From: Akkermansia muciniphila
Lineage (GTDB): Bacteria; Verrucomicrobiota; Verrucomicrobiia; Verrucomicrobiales; Akkermansiaceae
Length of the DNA: 52,635 nucleotides
NCBI GenBank assembly: GCA_945901795.1
Contig: CAMDLP010000019.1
Span: 1-52,635, forward strand
Direction: 5' to 3'
Part shown: positions 14,643 to 49,628 of the stretch, in pieces
How the letters are laid out: each line of letters opens with the position of its first letter
Position numbering within the stretch: position 1 is the first letter of the stretch
Made by a program: the position numbers and the translations under genes
Notes under the pieces: model-generated
What the model saw: only the letters and a program-made list of their open reading frames with translations
Database searches by the model: none
Told to the model about the DNA's origin: nothing

Positions 14643-14689
14643 CTCTTAACACCATCCGAGCTTCCGGGAAAAACGAAAAACGCGCCACT

Positions 14690-14828
14690 TGGACTGCGTG
14701 CAGCCTGCTGCCGCTTTGATGCACGCAGCCTGCTGCGGCATGAGGCGGACGTTGGTTAGTAGAAACCGCGTCCACCCCCGCCAGCAGGCTGGCAACCCCG
14801 AAAGCGGCAGCAGGCTGCACGCAGTCCA
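14690..14828. repeat. Dispersed palindromic repeat, copy 1 (28-bp perfect inverted arms)
   Basis: Arms at 14690-14717 and 14801-14828 are perfect 28-bp inverted repeats. Between them is a second CGCAGCCTGCTGCGGCATG segment and a CGCCAGCAGGCTGGCAA segment, each internally hairpin-forming. A related, partly degenerate copy lies at 25509-25619, so this is a multi-copy element. The 200-bp gap 14643-14844 otherwise holds only the divergent upstream region of the LOG gene. Confidence 0.8.
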
Positions 14829-14844
14829 GGGCGACGACGCAAAA

Positions 14845-25508: not shown

Positions 25509-26776
<1,268 letters not shown>

Positions 26777-26790
26777 CAGCGGCAAAATTT

Positions 26791-27807
26791 ATGGACATTT
26801 CGGACTCGATGGCCTGGCTGGCCAAGCGCGATGGCAGCGTGGTGATCGGCCATGGTCCGTTCGCGGAATCCGCCGTTCCGCCGTCCGAAGGGGTTTCGTT
26901 TTACGTGCAGAATTTCGCGCTGGAGGATGCGAAACCGTGGAAAACCCCGAGCCGCATCGAGCGGACCACCACGGCGGAGCTGAGCGGGCGTTTTCGCGAC
27001 ATCCCGCCGCTGTCCTGTGATTGGACTCCGCTAGACGCCGCGCCGTTTTCGGTGATTTTCCAGGAAGTCATGTCATCGATCCACGGCGGAGTTTTCGAGA
27101 AAACCGTGCCGGTGGTCACCGAGACCGGCACCGCACGCCAATCCCCCGGACCTGCGATCCTGGCGGCGATGATCCGCCAGGCCGCACCACTCCACTCCTA
27201 TGGCTGGGTCCAACAGAACGCTGGTTTCGCGGGTGCGACTCCCGAGCTGCTGTTTTCGCTTCATGGCAACCGGCTCGAAACCATGGCGCTCGCCGGCACC
27301 GCCCGCAGCGAGGACCGCGAGGTTTTCGCCGTCGATGAAAAGGAAATCCGCGAGCACGAATACGTCGCTCAAACGCTCGTCTCCAAACTTCTCGACCTCG
27401 GCCGCATCACGCGCAGCGCCCGCGAAATCCTCGATCTTGGATCCATCGTGCATTTCCTAACTCTCATCAGCCTCGATCTCCAATCGCCGCAGACGCCGGA
27501 AGACCACCTCCGGCGGCTCCATCCCACGCCAGCGCTCGGTCCCCTGCCGCGGACTGCGGAAACTCTCTCACTGCTGCTAGGTTGGCGCGACCGCCTCGGC
27601 AGCCCCACCCAATTCGGTGCCCCCTTCGGACTTTGGGATCAAGGCCGATTCGATGCCGTCGTCGCGATCCGCGGCATCTGGTGGGAGGCCGAAAATTTAT
27701 GGTTGCCCGCAGGATGCGGGATCATCGAAGCGAGCCGACTTGTCAACGAGTGGCGCGAACTCCGGCTCAAACGCGAGGCGGTCAAACGCTTCCTGTTGCC
27801 GCCCTGA
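26791..27807 (+). CDS. Chorismate-binding enzyme (isochorismate synthase / MenF-like)
   Basis: A 338-residue protein with the C-terminal catalytic fold of the anthranilate/isochorismate synthase family: GATPELLFS, MALAGTARS, EIREHEYVAQ, HPTPALGPLPR, and GCGIIEASRLVNEWRE near the end. The catalytic acids of the EIREHE and GIIEAS segments are present. At 338 residues it is shorter than MenF or EntC (about 390-430) because the N-terminal beta domain is reduced. Isochorismate synthase is the best guess; aminodeoxychorismate or salicylate synthase are alternatives. No men genes are adjacent. It may be co-transcribed with leuB. Confidence 0.8.
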   Translation: MDISDSMAWLAKRDGSVVIGHGPFAESAVPPSEGVSFYVQNFALEDAKPWKTPSRIERTTTAELSGRFRDIPPLSCDWTPLDAAPFSVIFQEVMSSIHGGVFEKTVPVVTETGTARQSPGPAILAAMIRQAAPLHSYGWVQQNAGFAGATPELLFSLHGNRLETMALAGTARSEDREVFAVDEKEIREHEYVAQTLVSKLLDLGRITRSAREILDLGSIVHFLTLISLDLQSPQTPEDHLRRLHPTPALGPLPRTAETLSLLLGWRDRLGSPTQFGAPFGLWDQGRFDAVVAIRGIWWEAENLWLPAGCGIIEASRLVNEWRELRLKREAVKRFLLPP

Positions 27808-27889
27808 ACGCCAAGTCCGGTCCGGCGATCCCCTCTTGAAAACGCCCACCCGAGCGGCAGGGCGCGAAGTCGAAACTATCACCGATAAG

Positions 27890-27958
27890 TTTTTAATTAA
27901 AAAACATTGATTATTTTAAAAAAACACACAGGATCGCGACGTATTGCTTCACTGAACC
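27890..27958 (+). promoter_or_regulatory. AT-rich upstream region of the second kinase/regulator operon
   Basis: In an otherwise GC-rich window, 27890-27930 is strikingly AT-rich and contains a perfect 14-bp palindrome, TTTTTAATTAAAAA (27890-27903). It lies 55-70 bp before the kinase start, where promoter or regulator-binding sites are expected. No clear -35/-10 pair is distinguishable. Confidence 0.4.
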
Positions 27959-29974
27959 ATGCCAGTCACCGGTCATTCCCGCCATCTCTACAGCGCAGCG
28001 CTGTGGTCTTTGGCTTGCCTCTCGCCCACTCCGGCGGCGGCTTTTGGGACGGCTCAGGTTACCAACCCGATCAGCACGATCGCCCGTGTTTTCGAACCGC
28101 AACTCGTTAAGACAGAAGACCGAGTCTTATGGTTGACTAACCGGGTGTCGACCTTGGCCCAGCGCCGCGAGCATGCGATGAAAGTCGGTTTGGGTTACCG
28201 GGGTGGCCGCGTCAACGCCCATTCACCAGACCCCACGGTGACACTCGATCTGGGCAGCGAATATCTGATCGAGACGATTTTCCTGATTCCTACCCAGAGA
28301 GAGTTTTTAGAAGATTCCGGAATTTTCCCAAAACGTTTTACGATTGAAGTGTCAAATGGGGCGGATTTCGCCCGACGCAGGGTAATTTACACCTCGGGCA
28401 CCACTCCCCGCTTTTCAGACGGTGCCCCGATGCCATTAGAAGCCCATGACACCGCCCGCTACGTGCGGCTGACCGTGCACGAAGGTCACAAGAAAGGAAC
28501 GATCGATCTCTTCGGCCTGTCTGAAATCGCGGTGATTTCACAAGGAAATCCTGTTTCATTCGGTGCTGCCGTGACCTGCACGGGAGACATGAATGCGCGC
28601 GGCACCTGGTATCCCGAGGCGTTGACGGACGGTCGCACCCCTCTCGGCGTCTGGCAGAACGGCACCGGGCCCATCGCCGAACCCGGCGATTCCGTGGCGG
28701 TTTCCAGCGCCACCGAAAGCGTTTCCTGGACCATCGAACTCGAGCAATCCAGCGCTTTGGATCGCATAATCATTTTCCCCTATCAGCTCAACCAGTCCTT
28801 CGAATCCTCGATTCTTCCCGAATCGATGACGATCCATCTCCAAGCGGCGGACGGCAGCGAAGAGCAACTGGCCTATTCATGGAGTAATCCCGTGGCAGGC
28901 TCCAGCAGCATGACCCCGCTGGTGATTCCTCTCGGCGGAAAATTCGCGAAATGCCTCCGCCTCACCGGAGTCAGCCCCTACCTGCTAGGAGATCAGAAAA
29001 TTCACGCCCTCTCGGAAATCGAGGTTTGGTCGCACGGTCAAAACTTGGCCAGCGGTCGCCCCGTCACCCGCTCGCACGGTGCCGAAACCTCCGACGTCAC
29101 CTCCCTCACCGACGGTTACACCTCGGAAAAGCGAATTTCCTCGGTCGGCACCTGGCTCGACCAACTCTCTGAGCGCGGCAAGATCGAACGCGAACTCGCC
29201 GCGCTCAAGCCCATCCACCACCAACTCGCTTCCGAAAGCGAACTCAACGCGACCTGGGGCTCCGCGATGATTCTCGGCCTGACATTCCTCATCCCCGTCT
29301 TCATCGTCGAGCGCCGGCGCTTGATGTCGAAGGACCAACTCGACCAAATCCGCAAACGGATCGCCTCCGACCTCCACGACGACATCGGCAGCAACCTCGG
29401 CAGCATTTCCCTCATCGCCCGCAGCGCCCGCAAGGACCTCGTCCGCCTCCACGGTCCGGAGGAAGTCGCCGAGGATCTCGGTGAGGTGGAATCGATCGCC
29501 CGGGAGAGCTCGCTGGCCATGCGCGACATCGTCTGGTTGTTGGAGCGCCGCCAGGACTCGATCGGCGACCTCGTCCAGCGGATGCGTGAAACCGCGGGAC
29601 GGCTCCTGCGGGAAATCAATTTCACCGTCGAATGCGAGTCCCACAAGACCGCCGCCAAGCTATCGCTCGATGCCAAGCGCCATCTGTTTCTCTTCTACAA
29701 GGAAGCGATCCACAACGTGCTGAAACACTCGCACGCCGACCGCGTTTCTATCCGCCTGTGGGATGAGGACGACAAGCTAGCTCTCGAAATCATCGACAAC
29801 GGCGTGGGCGTGCCCGTGAGTGCAGACCTCAAGCCGGCCGCGGTCAACAAGCTCCAAGACCGCGCGCGGGTGCTTGAAGGCACTCTTCACATCACCTCTT
29901 CCAAGGAAACCGGAACTCTCATCCGCCTGCTCGTCAAACGCTCCCACCTCACCTCAAACCCCGCCCTCGCATGA
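27959..29974 (+). CDS. Sensor histidine kinase with discoidin-like periplasmic region (paralogue)
   Basis: A 671-residue protein with the same architecture as the kinase at 620-2671. It has an N-terminal signal sequence (ALWSLACLSPTPAAA) and about 400 exported residues with discoidin-like patterns (PTVTLDLGSEYLIETIFLIP, TARYVRLTVHEG, then CLRLTGVSPYL before SEIEVWSHG). One membrane helix lies at about 436-453. HisKA_3 is SDLHDDIGSNLGSISLIA with His473, the N box is KEAIHNVLKH and the G box IIDNGVGVP. The stop codon overlaps the regulator start (ATGA, 29971-29974), so the two are translationally coupled. Ligand unknown; a glycan is plausible by analogy. Confidence 0.9.
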   Translation: MPVTGHSRHLYSAALWSLACLSPTPAAAFGTAQVTNPISTIARVFEPQLVKTEDRVLWLTNRVSTLAQRREHAMKVGLGYRGGRVNAHSPDPTVTLDLGSEYLIETIFLIPTQREFLEDSGIFPKRFTIEVSNGADFARRRVIYTSGTTPRFSDGAPMPLEAHDTARYVRLTVHEGHKKGTIDLFGLSEIAVISQGNPVSFGAAVTCTGDMNARGTWYPEALTDGRTPLGVWQNGTGPIAEPGDSVAVSSATESVSWTIELEQSSALDRIIIFPYQLNQSFESSILPESMTIHLQAADGSEEQLAYSWSNPVAGSSSMTPLVIPLGGKFAKCLRLTGVSPYLLGDQKIHALSEIEVWSHGQNLASGRPVTRSHGAETSDVTSLTDGYTSEKRISSVGTWLDQLSERGKIERELAALKPIHHQLASESELNATWGSAMILGLTFLIPVFIVERRRLMSKDQLDQIRKRIASDLHDDIGSNLGSISLIARSARKDLVRLHGPEEVAEDLGEVESIARESSLAMRDIVWLLERRQDSIGDLVQRMRETAGRLLREINFTVECESHKTAAKLSLDAKRHLFLFYKEAIHNVLKHSHADRVSIRLWDEDDKLALEIIDNGVGVPVSADLKPAAVNKLQDRARVLEGTLHITSSKETGTLIRLLVKRSHLTSNPALA

Positions 29975-30627
29975 TCGCCGAAGCCACCTCCACCCATTGC
30001 ATCTGGATTCTCGAAGACCACGAGGTGTTCGCCAAGCAGATCCGCCGCCTCATCAGCAACGAGGACGACCTCACCTGCCCGCATCACTTCTCCAGCGCGG
30101 CCGAGCTGTTCGACAAGCTGAAGTTCACCAACGAGCGGCCGGACCTGCTGCTTCTCGATCTCGGCCTCCCCCGCCGCGACGGCCTCGAAGTCCTGACCGA
30201 AATCCGCGCGCTGCTGCCCGAGGTCAAGGTGCTCATTCTTTCCGCATCCGATGACCGCGACAAAGTTTACCGCGCCATCTGCAACGGCGCATCCGGCTAC
30301 CTACTCAAGACCTCGGACCCGGACGAAATCCTCTCGGGCATCCGCGACGTGATCCACGGCACCTCGGCGCTCAGCGCGCCGATCGCTAACATGATCCTCC
30401 AGGGATTCGCCCGCTACGGTCCGGTCAAGCACATCGAACGGCTCACCCACCGCGAGGAAGAAGTGCTGGGCTTCCTGGTCCGTGGACTGATCAAAAAGGA
30501 AATCGCCGACGAGCTCTCCATTTCACAGCACACCGTGGACATGCACCTGCGCTCGGTTTACCGGAAACTGGAGGTCCGCTCGCAGACCGAGGCGGTTTCC
30601 AAGGCCCTCCGCCAGGGACTGGTCTGA
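29971..30627 (+). CDS. NarL/FixJ-family response regulator (paralogue)
   Basis: A 218-residue regulator: receiver domain with IWILEDHEVF at the N-terminus and phospho-acceptor Asp63 in LLLLDLGLPRRDG, then a LuxR-type helix-turn-helix (THREEEVLGFLVRGLIKKEIA, SISQHTVDMHLRSVYRKLEV). It overlaps the kinase gene by 4 bp. A strong terminator stands 30 bp after its stop, so the pair forms a closed two-gene operon, unlike the first pair, which continues into metabolic genes. Confidence 0.94.
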   Translation: MIAEATSTHCIWILEDHEVFAKQIRRLISNEDDLTCPHHFSSAAELFDKLKFTNERPDLLLLDLGLPRRDGLEVLTEIRALLPEVKVLILSASDDRDKVYRAICNGASGYLLKTSDPDEILSGIRDVIHGTSALSAPIANMILQGFARYGPVKHIERLTHREEEVLGFLVRGLIKKEIADELSISQHTVDMHLRSVYRKLEVRSQTEAVSKALRQGLV

Positions 30628-30657
30628 CCCTCCAATTTCGAGTTCGCGCTCAAAAAC

Positions 30658-30694
30658 AAAAACCCCCGGTTCGTCTGACGAACCGGGGGTTTTT
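30658..30694. terminator. Strong bidirectional intrinsic terminator
   Basis: An 11-bp GC-rich stem (30663-30673 with 30679-30689) encloses a TCTGA loop. It is flanked by AAAAA on the left and TTTTT on the right. It sits between the response regulator (+) and rplI (-), and its symmetry allows it to terminate both. Confidence 0.95.
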
Positions 30695-30716
30695 CATGAA
30701 AGCTATCAGCAGCGGA

Positions 30717-31187
30717 TCAGGCTTCGGCCTCTTCCGCGCCCGCATCCACCGAGATGGTGAGCGTGGCGATGACCTCAGGATGGAGGCGGATTTGCACTTC
30801 GGTCTTGCCGGACTTTTTCACCGGCTTCTCCAGCTCGATGGAGTGACGGTCGATGACGATTCCGGCCGCTTCGAGTTCCTTGTGGATGTCCATGTTGGTA
30901 ACCGATCCGAACGCCTTGCCGCCTTGGCCGGTGGAAAGCACGAACTTCGGCTTGAGCTTGGAAATCTTAGCGGCGAGTTCTTGGAGTCCGACGAGTTCGA
31001 CAGCTTCACGAGCCGCACGGGCGGTCTTGAGTGCCTCGACGTGGCGGAGGTTCGAGCGGTTGGCTTCGAAAGCCTTGCCTTGCGGGATGAGGAAATTCCG
31101 GGCGTATCCGGCGCGGACTTTAACAACATCAGCTTCGGCACCAAGGCCTTCGATTTTTTCTTTGAGAATAACTTGTGCGTTGGCCAT
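30717..31187 (-). CDS. rplI: 50S ribosomal protein L9
   Basis: A 156-residue protein with the typical L9 N-terminal domain: AQVILKEKIEGLGAEADVVKV, then AGYARNFLIPQGKA, and a C-terminal domain ending EVIATLTISVDAG. It binds 23S rRNA at the base of the L1 stalk. A short acidic tail (AEEAEA) extends the usual ~150 residues. I chose the ATG at 31187 (MANAQV); the frame is open 21 codons upstream but without similarity. rpsF, ssb and rpsR, its usual neighbours, are absent here, so it stands alone. Confidence 0.96.
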   Translation of the reverse strand: MANAQVILKEKIEGLGAEADVVKVRAGYARNFLIPQGKAFEANRSNLRHVEALKTARAAREAVELVGLQELAAKISKLKPKFVLSTGQGGKAFGSVTNMDIHKELEAAGIVIDRHSIELEKPVKKSGKTEVQIRLHPEVIATLTISVDAGAEEAEA

Positions 31188-31328
31188 GGGAATCAGTGGT
31201 AAAAGTTCGTTTGGGGGCGGCGATTTAGGCCTCGCCCCAAAACGAGTCAAGAAGAATGAAGCTTTATTCCTCGCCGAAGCTGAGAATTCCCAAAGACCGA
31301 AATATTTCCACTGCGCGGGCTTCCGGTT

Positions 31329-32192
31329 TCAGAGTTGGTTCAACGGCTTTTTCATAAACTCCTCATCGCGCAGTTTTCTCAAATATTCGAGATAACGCTG
31401 CTGGGCCAGCAGATCGGGGTTGTTCGCGGCCGGAGTCTCCTGCCCGTATTTTTTCCACGGCCCGTAGGGAACTTGTCCGGCCTCAACGAAACGCCAGTGG
31501 ACTTTTTGCCCGGAACGCAGTCCGAGGTAGTCGCGGATGGACGGTGAAAGGTCGATCCCCGCCGCGCCATTCTCGGTCGTCTTCGGTGGTTTGGTGCCGA
31601 AGACGAATTCCCAGTCGTCGGTCACCCACGGCCCGCAATCTTCCCATTGGCCGTAACAACTCCGGCTGCCGTTGTAAATCTGGACCCAGCGGCCTTTGCA
31701 AACCGTCTTGCCCGGCTCCGGACTCATCCGGCAGAACCACGGAATGACCCTCGCGGCTTCCGGTTTGTGCCTGCCGGCGCCCTGCACGTCGTTATACGGC
31801 AGGGCCACGTAGAACGGATTGAGCTTGGGCACGAAACCCTTCGGCCGGAATTCACCGGTCGTGTGGTTCGCCACCCGGTTTGCCGGGTCCGGATCATCAT
31901 AACCACCATAATTGAACGTCCAGTTCTGGTCCCAGGACGACTTGCAGTTCGGCGTCGGATTGCGCGACGTCGGCTGCTCGCCAATCCAGAAAATCGTGGA
32001 AGTCACGTGGGTTTTCCACGGATAGAGAACCCGCGCGGTGGCAGTCGCCGGCGGCCGCACCGGCACCACCGGGCGGCTGCCCGTGGGTACCACCACCTTC
32101 GGAGCCGTCACCTGCCCGACCGCTGCCCCGCTGGCGAAAACGCCAGGCACGGCCAGAAAGAGCAGAAGGGTTTTGAAACGAAATCGAACCAT
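31329..32192 (-). CDS. Exported protein of unknown function, possibly double-psi barrel
   Basis: A 287-residue protein. It has a signal peptide (LLLFLAVPGVFASGAAVG), then a Pro/Val-rich linker. The ~200-residue globular part contains five cysteines (NCKSS, WFCRM, TVCKG, SCYGQWEDCG), many Trp and Tyr, and FYVALPYND. A late GAAGIDLSPSIRDYLGL segment resembles the active-site strand of double-psi beta-barrel proteins such as RlpA and expansins. The similarity is weak and I would not assign a reaction. It lies about 140 bp upstream of rplI on the same strand. Confidence 0.75.
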   Translation of the reverse strand: MVRFRFKTLLLFLAVPGVFASGAAVGQVTAPKVVVPTGSRPVVPVRPPATATARVLYPWKTHVTSTIFWIGEQPTSRNPTPNCKSSWDQNWTFNYGGYDDPDPANRVANHTTGEFRPKGFVPKLNPFYVALPYNDVQGAGRHKPEAARVIPWFCRMSPEPGKTVCKGRWVQIYNGSRSCYGQWEDCGPWVTDDWEFVFGTKPPKTTENGAAGIDLSPSIRDYLGLRSGQKVHWRFVEAGQVPYGPWKKYGQETPAANNPDLLAQQRYLEYLRKLRDEEFMKKPLNQL

Positions 32193-32247
32193 GACACTTG
32201 GATCGACGGAGATTTAGGCAATCGACCGGGACCGCCCCGGCGCCGAT

Positions 32248-33015
32248 TCACTCATCCGTGCCGGAATCGTTTCCGTAGAAACTCTTGATGTATCCGTACT
32301 CGACGAGCGTGTCCTGCCAGGGCGCGAGCACGTTCGGATCCTGGAAAATCCGTCCGGCGATCGCGAGCCACTCTTCCGCCTTGATCAGGTCGTTGCTGTC
32401 GTAGGCGAGCGCCGCCTGCGCGTAGTAATAAAACGGCGAGTCATCGAGGAAATCGTATTTCCCCGCAAGGATCGTCACCTCGTCGTTCAAGCCGAGCTTC
32501 TTCTTGCAGAGCAGGATCTTGAACTCCACCAACCGGCCGAGCGCGACATTCTCCGGCGGCAGCATCTTCATGATTTTCTCGAACAGATCGACGGACTTCT
32601 TCCACTCCTTGGTGACGAAATAAACCTCGCCGATGTTGAACTCGATGCTGGCGTTGTCCTTGGTCAGGGCGCGGGCCTTTTCAAACTGGTCGAGCGCCTT
32701 GTCGAACGACCGCATTTCCACGAAGCAGCTGCCCCGCAGGTTGTAGATCTCCGGGCTGTCGGTGAAAATCTTCGCCGCCTTGTCGAGTTCTTCGAGGGTT
32801 TCAAAAACCCGCTTCTGTTGGAAAAGACGGTTGCCCTCGCCGAGATGCTTGATGAATTCATTGCGGCTTTCCTCCGGAAGATTGAGGAATGCCTGCTGGT
32901 TGGGCATCAAAGCCTCCTTGTTGATGACCGGGCTTTTATCGACGGCGGCGGTCTTGTCTTGAGCCGAGAGCGGGGCGACCAAAACGAACAGGGAGAGAAG
33001 GGAGATGGATTTCAT
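32248..33015 (-). CDS. Exported tetratricopeptide-repeat protein
   Basis: A 255-residue protein with a signal peptide (MKSISLLSLFVLVAPLSAQ). TPR-like helix pairs follow at about 75-210, for example FETLEELDKAAKIFTDSPEI, then YNLRGSCFVEMRSFDKALDQ and a third unit with NIGEVYFVTKEWKKSVDLF. TPR domains mediate protein-protein contact; the partner is unknown. It ends 55 bp from the next exported protein gene on the same strand, so the two may be co-transcribed. Confidence 0.85.
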   Translation of the reverse strand: MKSISLLSLFVLVAPLSAQDKTAAVDKSPVINKEALMPNQQAFLNLPEESRNEFIKHLGEGNRLFQQKRVFETLEELDKAAKIFTDSPEIYNLRGSCFVEMRSFDKALDQFEKARALTKDNASIEFNIGEVYFVTKEWKKSVDLFEKIMKMLPPENVALGRLVEFKILLCKKKLGLNDEVTILAGKYDFLDDSPFYYYAQAALAYDSNDLIKAEEWLAIAGRIFQDPNVLAPWQDTLVEYGYIKSFYGNDSGTDE

Positions 33016-33587
33016 AGGCGTCTGTTGAAGCGCAAATTAAACAGAGAATTCGGAAACGGCAAGCCGTCGTTCATGCGGATTTCTCCCCTCTCCCAGAGCC
33101 ATTTCATCTGGAACGGGTGATCTACCTGAAAAATCTCTGCCTCCCGCAGAAATAGTGCCTAAACATCCGAAATGGGCATTTTAACGATCTTTCCCACTCA
33201 ATCCCCGGATTTTCTCAAAAATCAACCAACTGTAAAATACTGTTGAAACATCCACACCGGACGTGTAAACACTCTTCCAGATGAAGCCATGCCCGCCCTC
33301 GTCCGTGCCGGCGTCTCCAACGAAATCCACCGCCTGCTCGCCGCAGGCATAGGCACTTGGCATAGGCACTTGGCATAGGCACTTGGCATAGGCACTTGGC
33401 AGCTATCCGCTGGGCAACGATGCCACTGCCCTTCCGCTGTCCTCGCTGAGTTCCATCCTGGTTTGATTCCTTGCCGATCTCACGGCGCGCAGGCTGCAGC
33501 CTGCCTCGTGAAGTGCGCCGGTCACAGATTGCCGTTGGGCATCTGCGCTCTTTCCGCCAACCTCACCAAACGCGAGCGGATCCGGGA
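33016..33587. other. 572-bp gap without a convincing gene
   Basis: This stretch holds the upstream region of the TPR gene, the 13-bp tandem repeat at 33348-33399 and a perfect 16-bp palindrome GCAGGCTGCAGCCTGC at 33489-33504. From 33247 one frame (after a stop) reads a protein-like piece ending MPALVRAGVSNEIHRLLAAG and then runs into the tandem repeat; it may be a decayed gene end, but I do not recognise it. Confidence 0.5.
33348..33399. repeat. Four exact tandem copies of a 13-bp unit
   Basis: The unit CATAGGCACTTGG occurs four times without interruption (33348, 33361, 33374, 33387). Because 13 is not a multiple of three, any reading frame crossing it shifts with copy number. Confidence 0.97.
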
Positions 33588-34049
33588 TCAAGCGCCACCC
33601 AGCGGAGTCTTCAATCCCTCGGCAGCGGCAAGCTCGATTTGGTTCGCATCGAACGACAGAAACTCCTTGGCATCGAGATCGATGGCAGTGGCGATGTGCA
33701 GGATATCGAAACTGCGGTGCCCGCCGCCGAAAGTGCGCGCTTTGGAAATGCGCTCGCCGGTGACGAGGATGTTGATGAAGTCGATTTCCACGGAAGTCAC
33801 GAGGCCATCGCGCAGGTCATCACCCAAGTCCGAGAGCATTTTCTCCGCCTCATGAAAGGGGTAGCCAACATTGCGGTTTTTGCTGTACCGGAATGCTTGG
33901 AAGCGTACGGATTGCCGGAATTCCCAGAGCAACAACCGCGTGACATGCAATGACTCGGACATCGCCCCACGGTAGGCCACGGCCCGATCCGAATTGTCCT
34001 GCGGCCGATAGAGGGCGCACAGGAATGAAGTGTCGGGGTAAGCGATCAA
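33588..34049 (-). CDS. vapC: PIN-domain ribonuclease toxin (VapC-like)
   Basis: A 153-residue PIN-domain protein. The four acidic metal-binding residues are visible: Asp6 in YPDTSFL, Glu43 in LLWEF, Asp115 in RSFDILHIA and Asp134 in LSFDAN. VapC toxins cleave tRNA or rRNA and are neutralised by a partner antitoxin. Its start overlaps the antitoxin stop by 4 bp (ATGA, 34046-34049), the usual layout. All four acidic residues are kept, so it may be active. Confidence 0.88.
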   Translation of the reverse strand: MIAYPDTSFLCALYRPQDNSDRAVAYRGAMSESLHVTRLLLWEFRQSVRFQAFRYSKNRNVGYPFHEAEKMLSDLGDDLRDGLVTSVEIDFINILVTGERISKARTFGGGHRSFDILHIATAIDLDAKEFLSFDANQIELAAAEGLKTPLGGA

Positions 34050-34300
34050 CTGCGGTCTCCGAGTTCGGCCTCCCGCATTTCCTTGACTTCCTCCGCAGTG
34101 AACACCCGGTCGCCCCAGGTTTCCTTCATTCGCCGGCGGTGGGTCTCGGCATCGAATTTCCGCACATCCCCAGTTCCCGGCGGCGAAAGTCGGGCCACCG
34201 GCTTGCCGTGCTTGGTGATTTCGATATCCTCGCCATCGGCCAACCAGGCTTCCACCTTGCCGAAATCATAGCGTAAGTCCCTGACTGTCAGTGTTTGCAT
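34046..34300 (-). CDS. vapB: Phd/YefM-like antitoxin partner of the PIN toxin
   Basis: An 84-residue protein beginning MQTLTVRDLRYDFGKVEAWL, followed by GEDIEITKHGKPVARLSP. This is the Phd/YefM N-terminal DNA-binding fold. The C-terminal half (FDAETHRRRMKETWGDRVFT) would wrap the toxin. Such antitoxins also repress their own promoter. I chose the ATG at 34300; an ATG at 34324 would add eight residues. It precedes and overlaps the toxin gene by 4 bp. The name vapB is by position; the fold is of Phd type. Confidence 0.85.
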   Translation of the reverse strand: MQTLTVRDLRYDFGKVEAWLADGEDIEITKHGKPVARLSPPGTGDVRKFDAETHRRRMKETWGDRVFTAEEVKEMREAELGDRS

Positions 34301-34399
34301 TGTTGTGATGATTAATTTCATCACAAATTACCATCTTTGCCACCGCCGTCAAGCGCCTTCCCAAAAAATGTCCGGACTGCCATGTTTTACGCGGCCCAA

Positions 34400-35287
34400 T
34401 TATTCCTTTCCCGTCGCGGTCTCTGTGTGCCGCGTGATGTGTCGATCATCTGTCATGACCCGGATCGCTGCTTCACATGGTGCGATCCGGCGGTTTCCCA
34501 CTTCAGCTGGGATGCCCGTCCTGTGTGGGCTCATGTAAGCCGATGGGTCAACCAGATCGCGGCCGATCCATCCCGGCTCGCCCTTCGCATCCACAAACAC
34601 CACGCCGATCGGCATGTCGGGCTGACTGTCGGCCAAATGGATCATTTCCGCCTCCGCCCGTTCGCACATTTCGATCCACTCCATTTTCATCTCGATGGGA
34701 TCCAGATGGCGGGCTTTCATTTCATCGAGTTCTCCCCGCACGGTTTTTGCGAAACGGCGCATCATTTTGAGCGGGAACAGCGGGCTGAATCCCTCGTCCT
34801 TGCCGCAGGCCGCCCACACGATGGCTTCCAGCGAATACAGCCTGCCAAGTTCGAGAATATCGACGTAGTCGCGGGTTTCGGTCCGTCCCGAAACCGCCAG
34901 AGCCTTGTTCACCGCCATGTCGAACAAATGCAGCCGCCAACCCAGCACCGGATCATGGACGATCGGGAAAAACCGCCATGCCGTGTCGTGCGCCCAATCC
35001 AGCGAAACATGGTCCGCACCGCGTCGCACGTCCGCCCGGCGGAACGAGGTGAGCGTATCCCAACTGCCGTAGCTTTCATTCGGGGTCACCTCATATCCGG
35101 CGGAACGCAATGCCGCCGCATCCCGTTCGCTCGCCTCGGCAAGCGCCTCCACGGCATCGTGGAAAAAACCAAAATCGGCTCGCCTGCGAGCCGCGCTCTT
35201 TCCCGGAGTTAATGGGTTTTCTCCGGGATCCAGGGGCCGCCCTTCGTAGCTGTAGCGAAGCAGGGCGGCCCCGCACTTTCGGGGCAC
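34400..35287 (-). pseudogene. 5'-truncated AbiEii-like nucleotidyltransferase
   Basis: From about residue 38 (position 35176) to residue ~200 this resembles AbiEii/DUF1814-type nucleotidyltransferase toxins: FGFFHDAVEAL, LDWAHDTAWRFFP, LHLFDMAVNKALAVSGR, RDYVDILELGRLYSLEA, VWAACGKDEGF. The N-terminus, where the family has a glycine-rich GG-x-A segment and an S-x-D-I-D active site, is replaced by sequence reading into a hairpin-rich repeat region. The retained part reads DFGFF where D-[LI]-D is expected. The frame is still open (295 residues), but the catalytic end is gone, so I regard it as inactivated. No AbiEi-type antitoxin lies beside it. Confidence 0.65.
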
Positions 35288-35297
35288 CCTGGTAGTG

Positions 35298-35460
35298 CGG
35301 ACTTCAGTCCGTATGCCTTTAAGGATTCAAGACGGGCAGTCTGTCCATCCCGGCACGAGTGCGGCAAGCTCTGCTGCCGCCTGCGGGGGATGGAGCTCTG
35401 CTCCATGCGGGGCGGAGCTCTTTGTTCCGCGGAAGACGCTCCGCACCGCATCCCGCCTCC
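35298..35460. repeat. Cluster of short imperfect hairpins
   Basis: At least five small stem-loops follow one another, including CGGAC-TTCA-GTCCG at 35298-35311, GGGCA-GTC-TGTCC (from 35334), GCGGCA...TGCCGC (from ~35361), ATGGAGC-TCT-GCTCCAT (from ~35389) and a CGGAGC...GTTCCG stem (from ~35411). Several carry the phrase AGCTCTGCT or AGCTCTTTG. This looks like a nested dispersed-repeat region, not a gene. Confidence 0.55.
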
Positions 35461-35466
35461 GGGCAG

Positions 35467-35699
35467 GAAGTGGCCATCGTGCTGGAAGACAGCGCGGGGC
35501 GCGTGGTCGGGATTGAAATGAAAGCCAGTGCCACCAAGGAGGCCACTGAGCGGATTTTGAATTCACTCGGACTCACGCCGACCGAGGCGATCCGGCTTTT
35601 CTACCGTCAGATTGCCGCGGTGACAAGTTTCCAAATCCTGATTTTACCAAGGGCGACATCATCCCCGCCAATGCGAAGCACGACTGGAATCTCGGAGCT
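35467..35699 (+). pseudogene. Mosaic of three gene fragments
   Basis: Three consecutive pieces come from unrelated families. At 35467-35538, EVAIVLEDSAGRVVGIEMKA matches the C-terminal end of DUF4143-type AAA ATPases (nuclease-like core with E-x-K). At 35536-35619, TERILNSLGLTPTEAIRLFY matches the N-terminal helices of RelB/DinJ antitoxins. At 35619-35699, in another frame, PDFTKGDIIPANAKHDWNLG matches the N-terminus of DUF6288 proteins. None is complete. The first two are fused in one frame, which runs on to 35907 over the tRNA gene on the opposite strand and is not a real gene. Confidence 0.6.
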
Positions 35700-35826
35700 C
35701 ATGACTCAGGTCGGAGGTCCGCACGTCCTCCCGCTCCCTGCCTTTCGCCCGTTGTTCACGGTTCTGGGGGGTGATTGTTCACGGTGCCCATTACAAGCCT
35801 GTTCAAATCACCACTCCAGAAAGGCG

Positions 35827-35860
35827 AAAGCCGCTCAACTCCTTGAAGTTGAACGGCTTT
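35827..35860 (-). terminator. Hairpin downstream of the initiator tRNA gene
   Basis: Fourteen-base arms at 35827-35840 and 35847-35860 pair with one mismatch around a CCTTGA loop. Read on the - strand it begins 3 bp after the tRNA 3' end and is followed by a T-containing stretch, fitting a tRNA terminator. Confidence 0.75.
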
Positions 35861-35863
35861 CAT

Positions 35864-35940
<77 letters not shown>

Positions 35941-48743: not shown

Positions 48744-49628
48744 ATGGAACCCAGCAGCGATCAATTCATCCGCTATCTCGCGACCGAGCGCGGGCTGTCC
48801 GAGGCGTATCAGCTGTCGGTGCGCCAGACGCTCGACGCGCTGGCCGGCTGGATGAAATCGCGGACCCCTTCCCTGCCCGACCTCGGGACCGACGAGCTCG
48901 CGGCATTTCTCAGCCAGCGCAAGAAGGACGGCCTCAACGCGGCCTCGCTGCGGATCACCACGGTGCATCTGAAGATTTTTTTCCGCTGGCTGGTGATGAA
49001 GGGCAAGCTGGAGATGGACCCGGCCGAGCCGCTGCTGGCCCCGCGACCGGACCAGACGCTACCAGAAACTTTGCATGCCTCCGAGTTGGTGAAACTGCTG
49101 GAGTCCATCGACCCGTCATTACCGTTAGGCCGGCGGGATTTGGCGATTCTCGAGTTGTTCTACTCCTCCGGCCTACGGCTTTCCGAGCTGTGCAAGGCCC
49201 GGCTGGAGATGATGGATTTCGAGGAGGGCTTCCTGCGGGTCACGGGAAAGGGCAGGAAGACCCGGATCGTGCGCGTCGGCAACAAGGCGCGCGAGGCGAT
49301 TTCCAACTACCTCGCCAACGAGCGCCCGGGCCTCGTCGGGAAGAAAACCTCGTCGCACGTATTCATCAGCGTCCGGGGCACCGCGCTCTCGCCGGACCGC
49401 GTCCGCCAGATCGTCAAGGAGCGTGCCAGGTTCGCGGGCATCGACCAGAACGTCTATCCGCACCTGCTGCGCCACTCGTTCGCGACCCACCTGCTGGAAG
49501 GCGGCGCGGACCTGCGGGTGATTCAGGAACTGCTGGGCCACGCCGACATTTCCACCACCCAGATCTACACCCACGTGGACCGACAGCGCTTGAAGTCGGT
49601 GCACAAGCAGTTCCACCCGCGCGGGTGA
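48744..49628 (+). CDS. xerD: Tyrosine recombinase XerC/XerD
   Basis: A 294-residue recombinase. The N-terminal SAM-like domain begins [20 protein letters not shown]. The catalytic residues are visible: Arg in [10 protein letters not shown], Lys in [10 protein letters not shown], His and Arg in [12 protein letters not shown], His in [10 protein letters not shown], and the nucleophile Tyr in TQIYTHVD. Xer recombinases resolve chromosome dimers at dif sites. It could be XerC or XerD; the FHLL/GLRLSEL form is common to both. It is not flanked by phage or integron genes, so a chromosomal housekeeping role is likely. Confidence 0.92.

Follow-up and report, generated by a model that had tools for sequence, protein, structure and literature searches.

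Gene pieces beside a tRNA-Met integration site in Akkermansia muciniphila: a probable scar of a decayed integrative element

The window analysed here is the whole of contig C19 (52,635 nucleotides) of a draft Akkermansia muciniphila genome of 3.28 Mb in 120 contigs (completeness 95.39, contamination 2.57). Just past the 3' end of a tRNA-Met gene it carries pieces of a DUF4143 ATPase gene, a relB antitoxin gene and a DUF6288 gene, packed within 242 bp. The gene pieces beside tRNA-Met reflect ordinary wear of the genome rather than a new gene, and they are most likely without function. We consider it likely, with a probability of roughly 0.7, that an integrative element decayed at tRNA-Met and left the pile as its scar, reworked by deletions or illegitimate joining. 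The usefulness of this reading is mainly that of an annotation warning, in that the open frames 35359-35907 (plus strand) and 34400-35287 (minus strand) look like genes and consist of joined debris. It also provides a worked example of decay at a tRNA-linked integration site, from a complete integrase in three relatives, to a truncated one in a fourth, to the repeat-bearing flank only in the present genome.

Internal pieces of unrelated genes

A preliminary description of this DNA, made from the sequence alone, had seen three unrelated gene fragments joined head to tail, and the three are real. The relB/dinJ antitoxin piece (35527-35616, plus strand) corresponds to codons 13-42 of 86. Over 35531-35616 it is identical to the intact relB of the congener G364 at 85 of 86 bases (98.8%, E 6.9e-37), and its DNA identity to intact relB is 95% in G015 and 87% in G002. 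In G364 and G015 a YafQ/RelE-type toxin gene comes directly after the intact relB in reading order. The window piece thus resembles the RelB/DinJ-YafQ type II toxin-antitoxin modules in these antitoxin codons but differs from them in having no start, no end and no adjacent toxin gene; no complete RelB/DinJ frame was found here, and what comes next is the DUF6288 piece. With hmmscan, the Pfam RelB profile scored below its cut-off on the piece (18-20 bits versus 22.4). The nearest named matches, among those listed, were Verrucomicrobia metagenome genomes.

The DUF4143 piece (35458-35535, plus strand) is the end of the DUF4143 domain, and aligns with codons 340-365 of 415 and 226-256 of 300 in two intact DUF4143 proteins. 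The domain was not found in the piece by hmmscan, and the best non-self match in 59 genomes had an E value of only 0.25. Its 25-residue peptide matched 163 plasmid records at an E limit of 10, each match spanning 80% or more of the peptide and the best E being 2e-3; the reversed peptide, used as a control, had zero matches in plasmid records. The likeness to DUF4143 (AAA_14) ATPases is one of about 25 residues at the domain end, the remainder of the gene being missing here. The DUF6288 piece (35625-35699, plus strand) covers codons 33-57 of an 800-residue protein, in a frame that differs from that of the other two pieces. It is 76% identical to the protein at locus L049 (E 8e-8 in a tblastn-type search of a 1.9-kb stretch only), and its DNA matches reach 86% (G258, E 6e-14). 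The likeness to DUF6288 proteins lies upstream of the named domain, which begins at residue 75 in a relative and is itself missing here, the piece ending at codon 57. No paper on DUF6288 was found in that part of the literature that was searched.

These alignments alter the earlier picture of the three pieces. What had been called the end of a DUF4143-type ATPase is the end of the domain and not of the protein; the supposed start of a RelB/DinJ antitoxin is internal to that gene; and the supposed start of a DUF6288 protein is near the start only. As described, the first two pieces are fused in frame (35458 and 35527 agree, 35625 differs), a join that is probably accidental, with one chance in three. 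The number of fragments was understated, two further pieces lying to the left. One is a GntR/LacI-type regulator piece (34310-34564, plus strand), cut at both ends, which corresponds to codons 279-364 of a 389-residue relative and is 42-45% identical to the intact genes L120, L122 and L123 (E 3e-17 to 7e-21, tblastn with a 1.9-kb stretch). These intact relatives contain GntR and Peripla_BP_3 domains; in the piece Peripla_BP_3 scored under its cut-off (22.6 of 26.5 bits). The other is an AbiEii-like nucleotidyltransferase piece (34556-35212, minus strand), with start and end both missing, which is 63%, 57% and 55% identical to L116, L117 and L118, and covers about 217-219 of their 287-295 residues. 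The AbiEii profile placed L116 just above its cut-off and L117 just below, and the window frame holding the piece had no Pfam match. The open frame 34400-35287 (minus strand) is made of this piece plus foreign ends. Between the nucleotidyltransferase and DUF4143 pieces sits a dispersed repeat (35298-35456), which matched eight other contigs of the same genome at 74-92% identity; most of the matches reach 35357-35456 only, and the identity to contig C84 is 91%. The repeat is GC-rich, has hairpin character and shows strand-opposed matches at two places. The regulator piece overlaps the end of a Phd-like gene by 15 bases. This gene belongs to a pair of PIN toxin and Phd-like antitoxin genes (open frames 33588-34324) left of the pile, in DNA already lacking homology to relatives; PIN scored above its Pfam cut-off, and Phd scored below that of Pfam and above that of NCBIfam. 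A short tandem repeat with a unit like GGCATAGGCACTT was read by eye at 33345-33402.

The positions given earlier for the two joints are approximately correct. At the first, one of the DUF4143 alignments stops at 35535 and the RelB alignments start at 35527-35531, so that 5-9 bases are assignable to either piece; a second DUF4143 alignment continues to 35550. At the second, 35617-35624 lies outside both the RelB and the DUF6288 alignments, and further right 35700-35736 lies outside the alignment of any piece. Farther left, the alignment of the regulator shares 34556-34564 with that of the nucleotidyltransferase. Microhomology is plausible at 35527-35535 and 34556-34564, judging from these overlaps; the 5-9 shared bases fit microhomology at the first joint, for which the preliminary description had suggested looking, but fall short of proof while a close DUF4143 donor is missing. 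A search for intact donors had also been suggested. In the same genome no intact close donor was found: its relB is a different one (38 bases at 84%), neither of its two DUF4143 genes is close to the piece, and DUF6288 had no DNA-level match. Close intact relB genes do occur in congeners.

No single gene family with the same combination came to light in the genomes searched, in agreement with the preliminary description. Among the matches listed for 58 relatives, none covered two pieces, and none of those listed spanned two pieces in 386 genomes of the order, drawn from a larger group with at most two candidates scored for each. Any match at all was present in 64 of the 386, a count that includes the window's own genome and some genomes that are also among the 58 relatives. 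The closest approach to the combination was in G242, where a 73% match covers 35530-35633, its last nine bases lying in the DUF6288 piece. A search of the genome collection confirmed at least 49 loci; among the matches listed, every one was on the RelB part, and the one extending furthest back (L104, 57%) begins at residue 14 of the query, within the DUF4143 piece. Window positions 35290-35863 had no match in phage and plasmid collections at an E limit of 1e-5. A real DUF4143-RelB fusion gene was rejected, given that the combination is absent from the other genomes searched and that the third piece lies in another frame. That the open frame 35359-35907 encodes a functional DUF4143-RelB fusion protein is the least probable of the alternatives, and verges on the negligible: the frame runs for 182 codons without a stop and holds both pieces, but it begins within the dispersed repeat, departs from the reading frame of DUF6288 and does not end until it is within the tRNA gene.

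tRNA-Met as an integration site

The tRNA-Met gene (anticodon CAT; 35864-35940, minus strand) was called by ARAGORN and scored 63.6 bits with Rfam tRNA; nothing else was above threshold in the Rfam scan. Displaced partial copies of the tRNA-Met 3' end were found in at least 10 of 58 relatives (G001, G004, G008, G031, G034, G039, G043, G044, G053 and G056). Six of these loci were inspected (L125, L127, L132, L133, L134 and L136), and ARAGORN called no tRNA at any of the six. In four an integrase lies within 100 bp, identified by Pfam and PHROGs for L125, by PHROGs for L133 and L134 (Pfam weak or none), and by 63% identity to L125 for L132 (tblastn). At L127 and L136 no integrase was in view, and the L127 copy, of only 70 bases, ends before the anticodon. 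Another integrase family occurs directly downstream of intact tRNA-Met in G044, G019 and G026. G031 has a truncated member, a fragment (L126) that had no PHROG match and owes its identity to tblastn. The gene thus serves as an integration site in relatives, and the data support the hot spot beside the tRNA that the preliminary description had suggested. In the tRNA flanks of five other genomes (L043, L044, L128, L056 and L052) the open frames, judged by eye, gave no clear sign of debris. In G008, at about 273-346 kb of contig C13, an intact tRNA-Met (L056) and the integrase-linked partial copy L125 share their orientation and are separated by 73 kb, and the pair may bound a large genomic island.

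The DNA adjoining the tRNA 3' end in the window is conserved in two parts. The segment next to the tRNA (35811-35863, minus strand) is found beside the tRNA in many congeners and contains an inverted repeat that, from its sequence, is probably the tRNA terminator. Beyond it, a 74-bp stretch (35737-35810) aligns with G044 and G307 beside tRNA-Met and contains two TTGTTCACGGT repeats, at 35752 and 35775, 23 bases apart; 0 were expected in window shuffles. In G044 and G019 this repeat-bearing stretch sits between the tRNA and the integrase. Among 198 loci compared, the exact TTGTTCACGGT pair occurs only beside the tRNA-Met of G000, G044, G019 and G307, and a degenerate pair lies beside the truncated integrase of G031. 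Because G026 has an integrase of that family and no exact pair, the TTGTTCACGGT pair does not mark the family in every case; the G307 contig ends before any integrase position is visible. The paired-repeat pattern had no exact match in viral contigs, and 35737-35863 as a whole had no match among phages. We infer that the TTGTTCACGGT repeats may be integrase arm sites of the attachment site. In this order, the tRNA-Met integrase family deserves proper definition, as do its paired repeats.

No integrase remnant was found in the pile by tblastn with the G019 and G044 integrases, whose only match in the window was a weak one at 49149-49604, to an unrelated Phage_integrase-family gene. No second copy of the tRNA was found in window positions 26001-35760, beyond short chance matches, and none elsewhere in the draft genome at E 1e-3.

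Origin of the pile

In the history we favor, an integrative element would once have sat at the 3' end of tRNA-Met, a gene that tyrosine integrases of more than one family target in the order. The tRNA and the element-side flank (35737-35863) would have survived, while the integrase and most of the cargo would have been lost. The DUF4143 ATPase, relB, DUF6288, AbiEii-like nucleotidyltransferase and regulator pieces, together with the dispersed repeat, would then be internal pieces that were left over or joined in later, the later joining being by illegitimate, possibly microhomology-guided, repair. The following observations argue for a decayed-element scar: partial tRNA-Met copies and integrases in relatives mark the integration site; 35737-35863 aligns with G044 and G307, and the repeat pair was seen only beside tRNA-Met in the loci compared; homology to relatives ends on both sides of the pile; and the joints are absent from every other genome searched. 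Counted against it are the lack of an integrase remnant and of a second tRNA copy, the absence of the exact pair from G026, and the contig end in G307. In addition, DUF6288 and the regulator are untypical as mobile cargo, and the flanks are rearranged relative to those of relatives, so that rearrangement alone could leave a scar. tRNA-integrated genomic islands are catalogued in Islander (PMC4383910). The present locus is like them in having an intact tRNA at one end with a probable integrase-side flank kept beside it, and the relatives are like them in the use of the tRNA 3' end by tyrosine integrases and in the displaced partial tRNA copies. It differs from intact islands in that neither an integrase nor a displaced tRNA copy was found here, gene fragments being all that is present.

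The pile might instead have formed at the joint of an inversion or translocation between dispersed repeats, with any role of integration at the tRNA incidental, which we regard as unlikely. Left-hand homology ends at or before 33117 in all 10 of the relatives compared, and right-hand homology resumes at the tRNA flank; at the intact tRNA loci compared it starts at 35811-35866 in congeners, at 35737 in G044 and, for the congener G307, at 35742. In most relatives the two flanking genes are on separate contigs; where they share a contig, they are separated by 16 kb (G050), 321 kb (G003) or about 600 kb (G041), and a dispersed repeat is indeed present in the pile. In the sister genome G012, tRNA-Met joins, after 557 bp, the window block starting at 14841, and G010 keeps 14686 and 14842 together. 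From the G012/G010 comparison and the split flanks, we conclude that chromosomal rearrangement has also acted on the neighborhood of this tRNA. Separate contigs in draft genomes, however, are no proof of distance, and a rearrangement leaves unexplained both the integrase-linked flank 35737-35810 and the integrases found there in relatives.

The preliminary description had spoken of precise joining and of repeated capture or deletion events, and a capture reading, in which short gene pieces were copied or ligated in successively by end joining at an integrase-broken site, seems somewhat less likely again than a rearrangement. Consistent with it, the pieces are unequal in similarity to known relatives (RelB 99%, DUF6288 86% at best), they are cut at both ends, and the alignments overlap by several bases at 35527-35535 and 34556-34564. 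Nevertheless, serial deletion gives the same anatomy with fewer special steps, the microhomology is unproved, and donors were not found in the same genome at the DNA level. Serial deletions or illegitimate joining during the decay of an island would account at least equally well for pieces that are truncated at both ends, and neither precise joining nor repeated capture is established. Slightly more doubtful still is the extended version, in which the tRNA-Met attachment site would be a recurrent break point, patches would be stitched in by microhomology-guided repair, and the pile would be a layered record of visiting elements. An assembly or binning artefact, with the contig joining unrelated reads, is very improbable. 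The genome is a draft with the contig number, completeness and contamination given above, and the joints occur in no other genome searched; but they sit in the interior of a 52.6-kb contig, the sequence shared at each is a few bases at most, assemblers require overlaps longer than that, and it is unlikely that such an error arose several times within 1.5 kb.

Two further features were seen elsewhere in the window. A segment of about 2.8 kb (27834-30609) is present here and missing at the matching place in G012. Another many-copy dispersed repeat, at 14687-14841, lies exactly at the G012 rearrangement point and is absent in G010.
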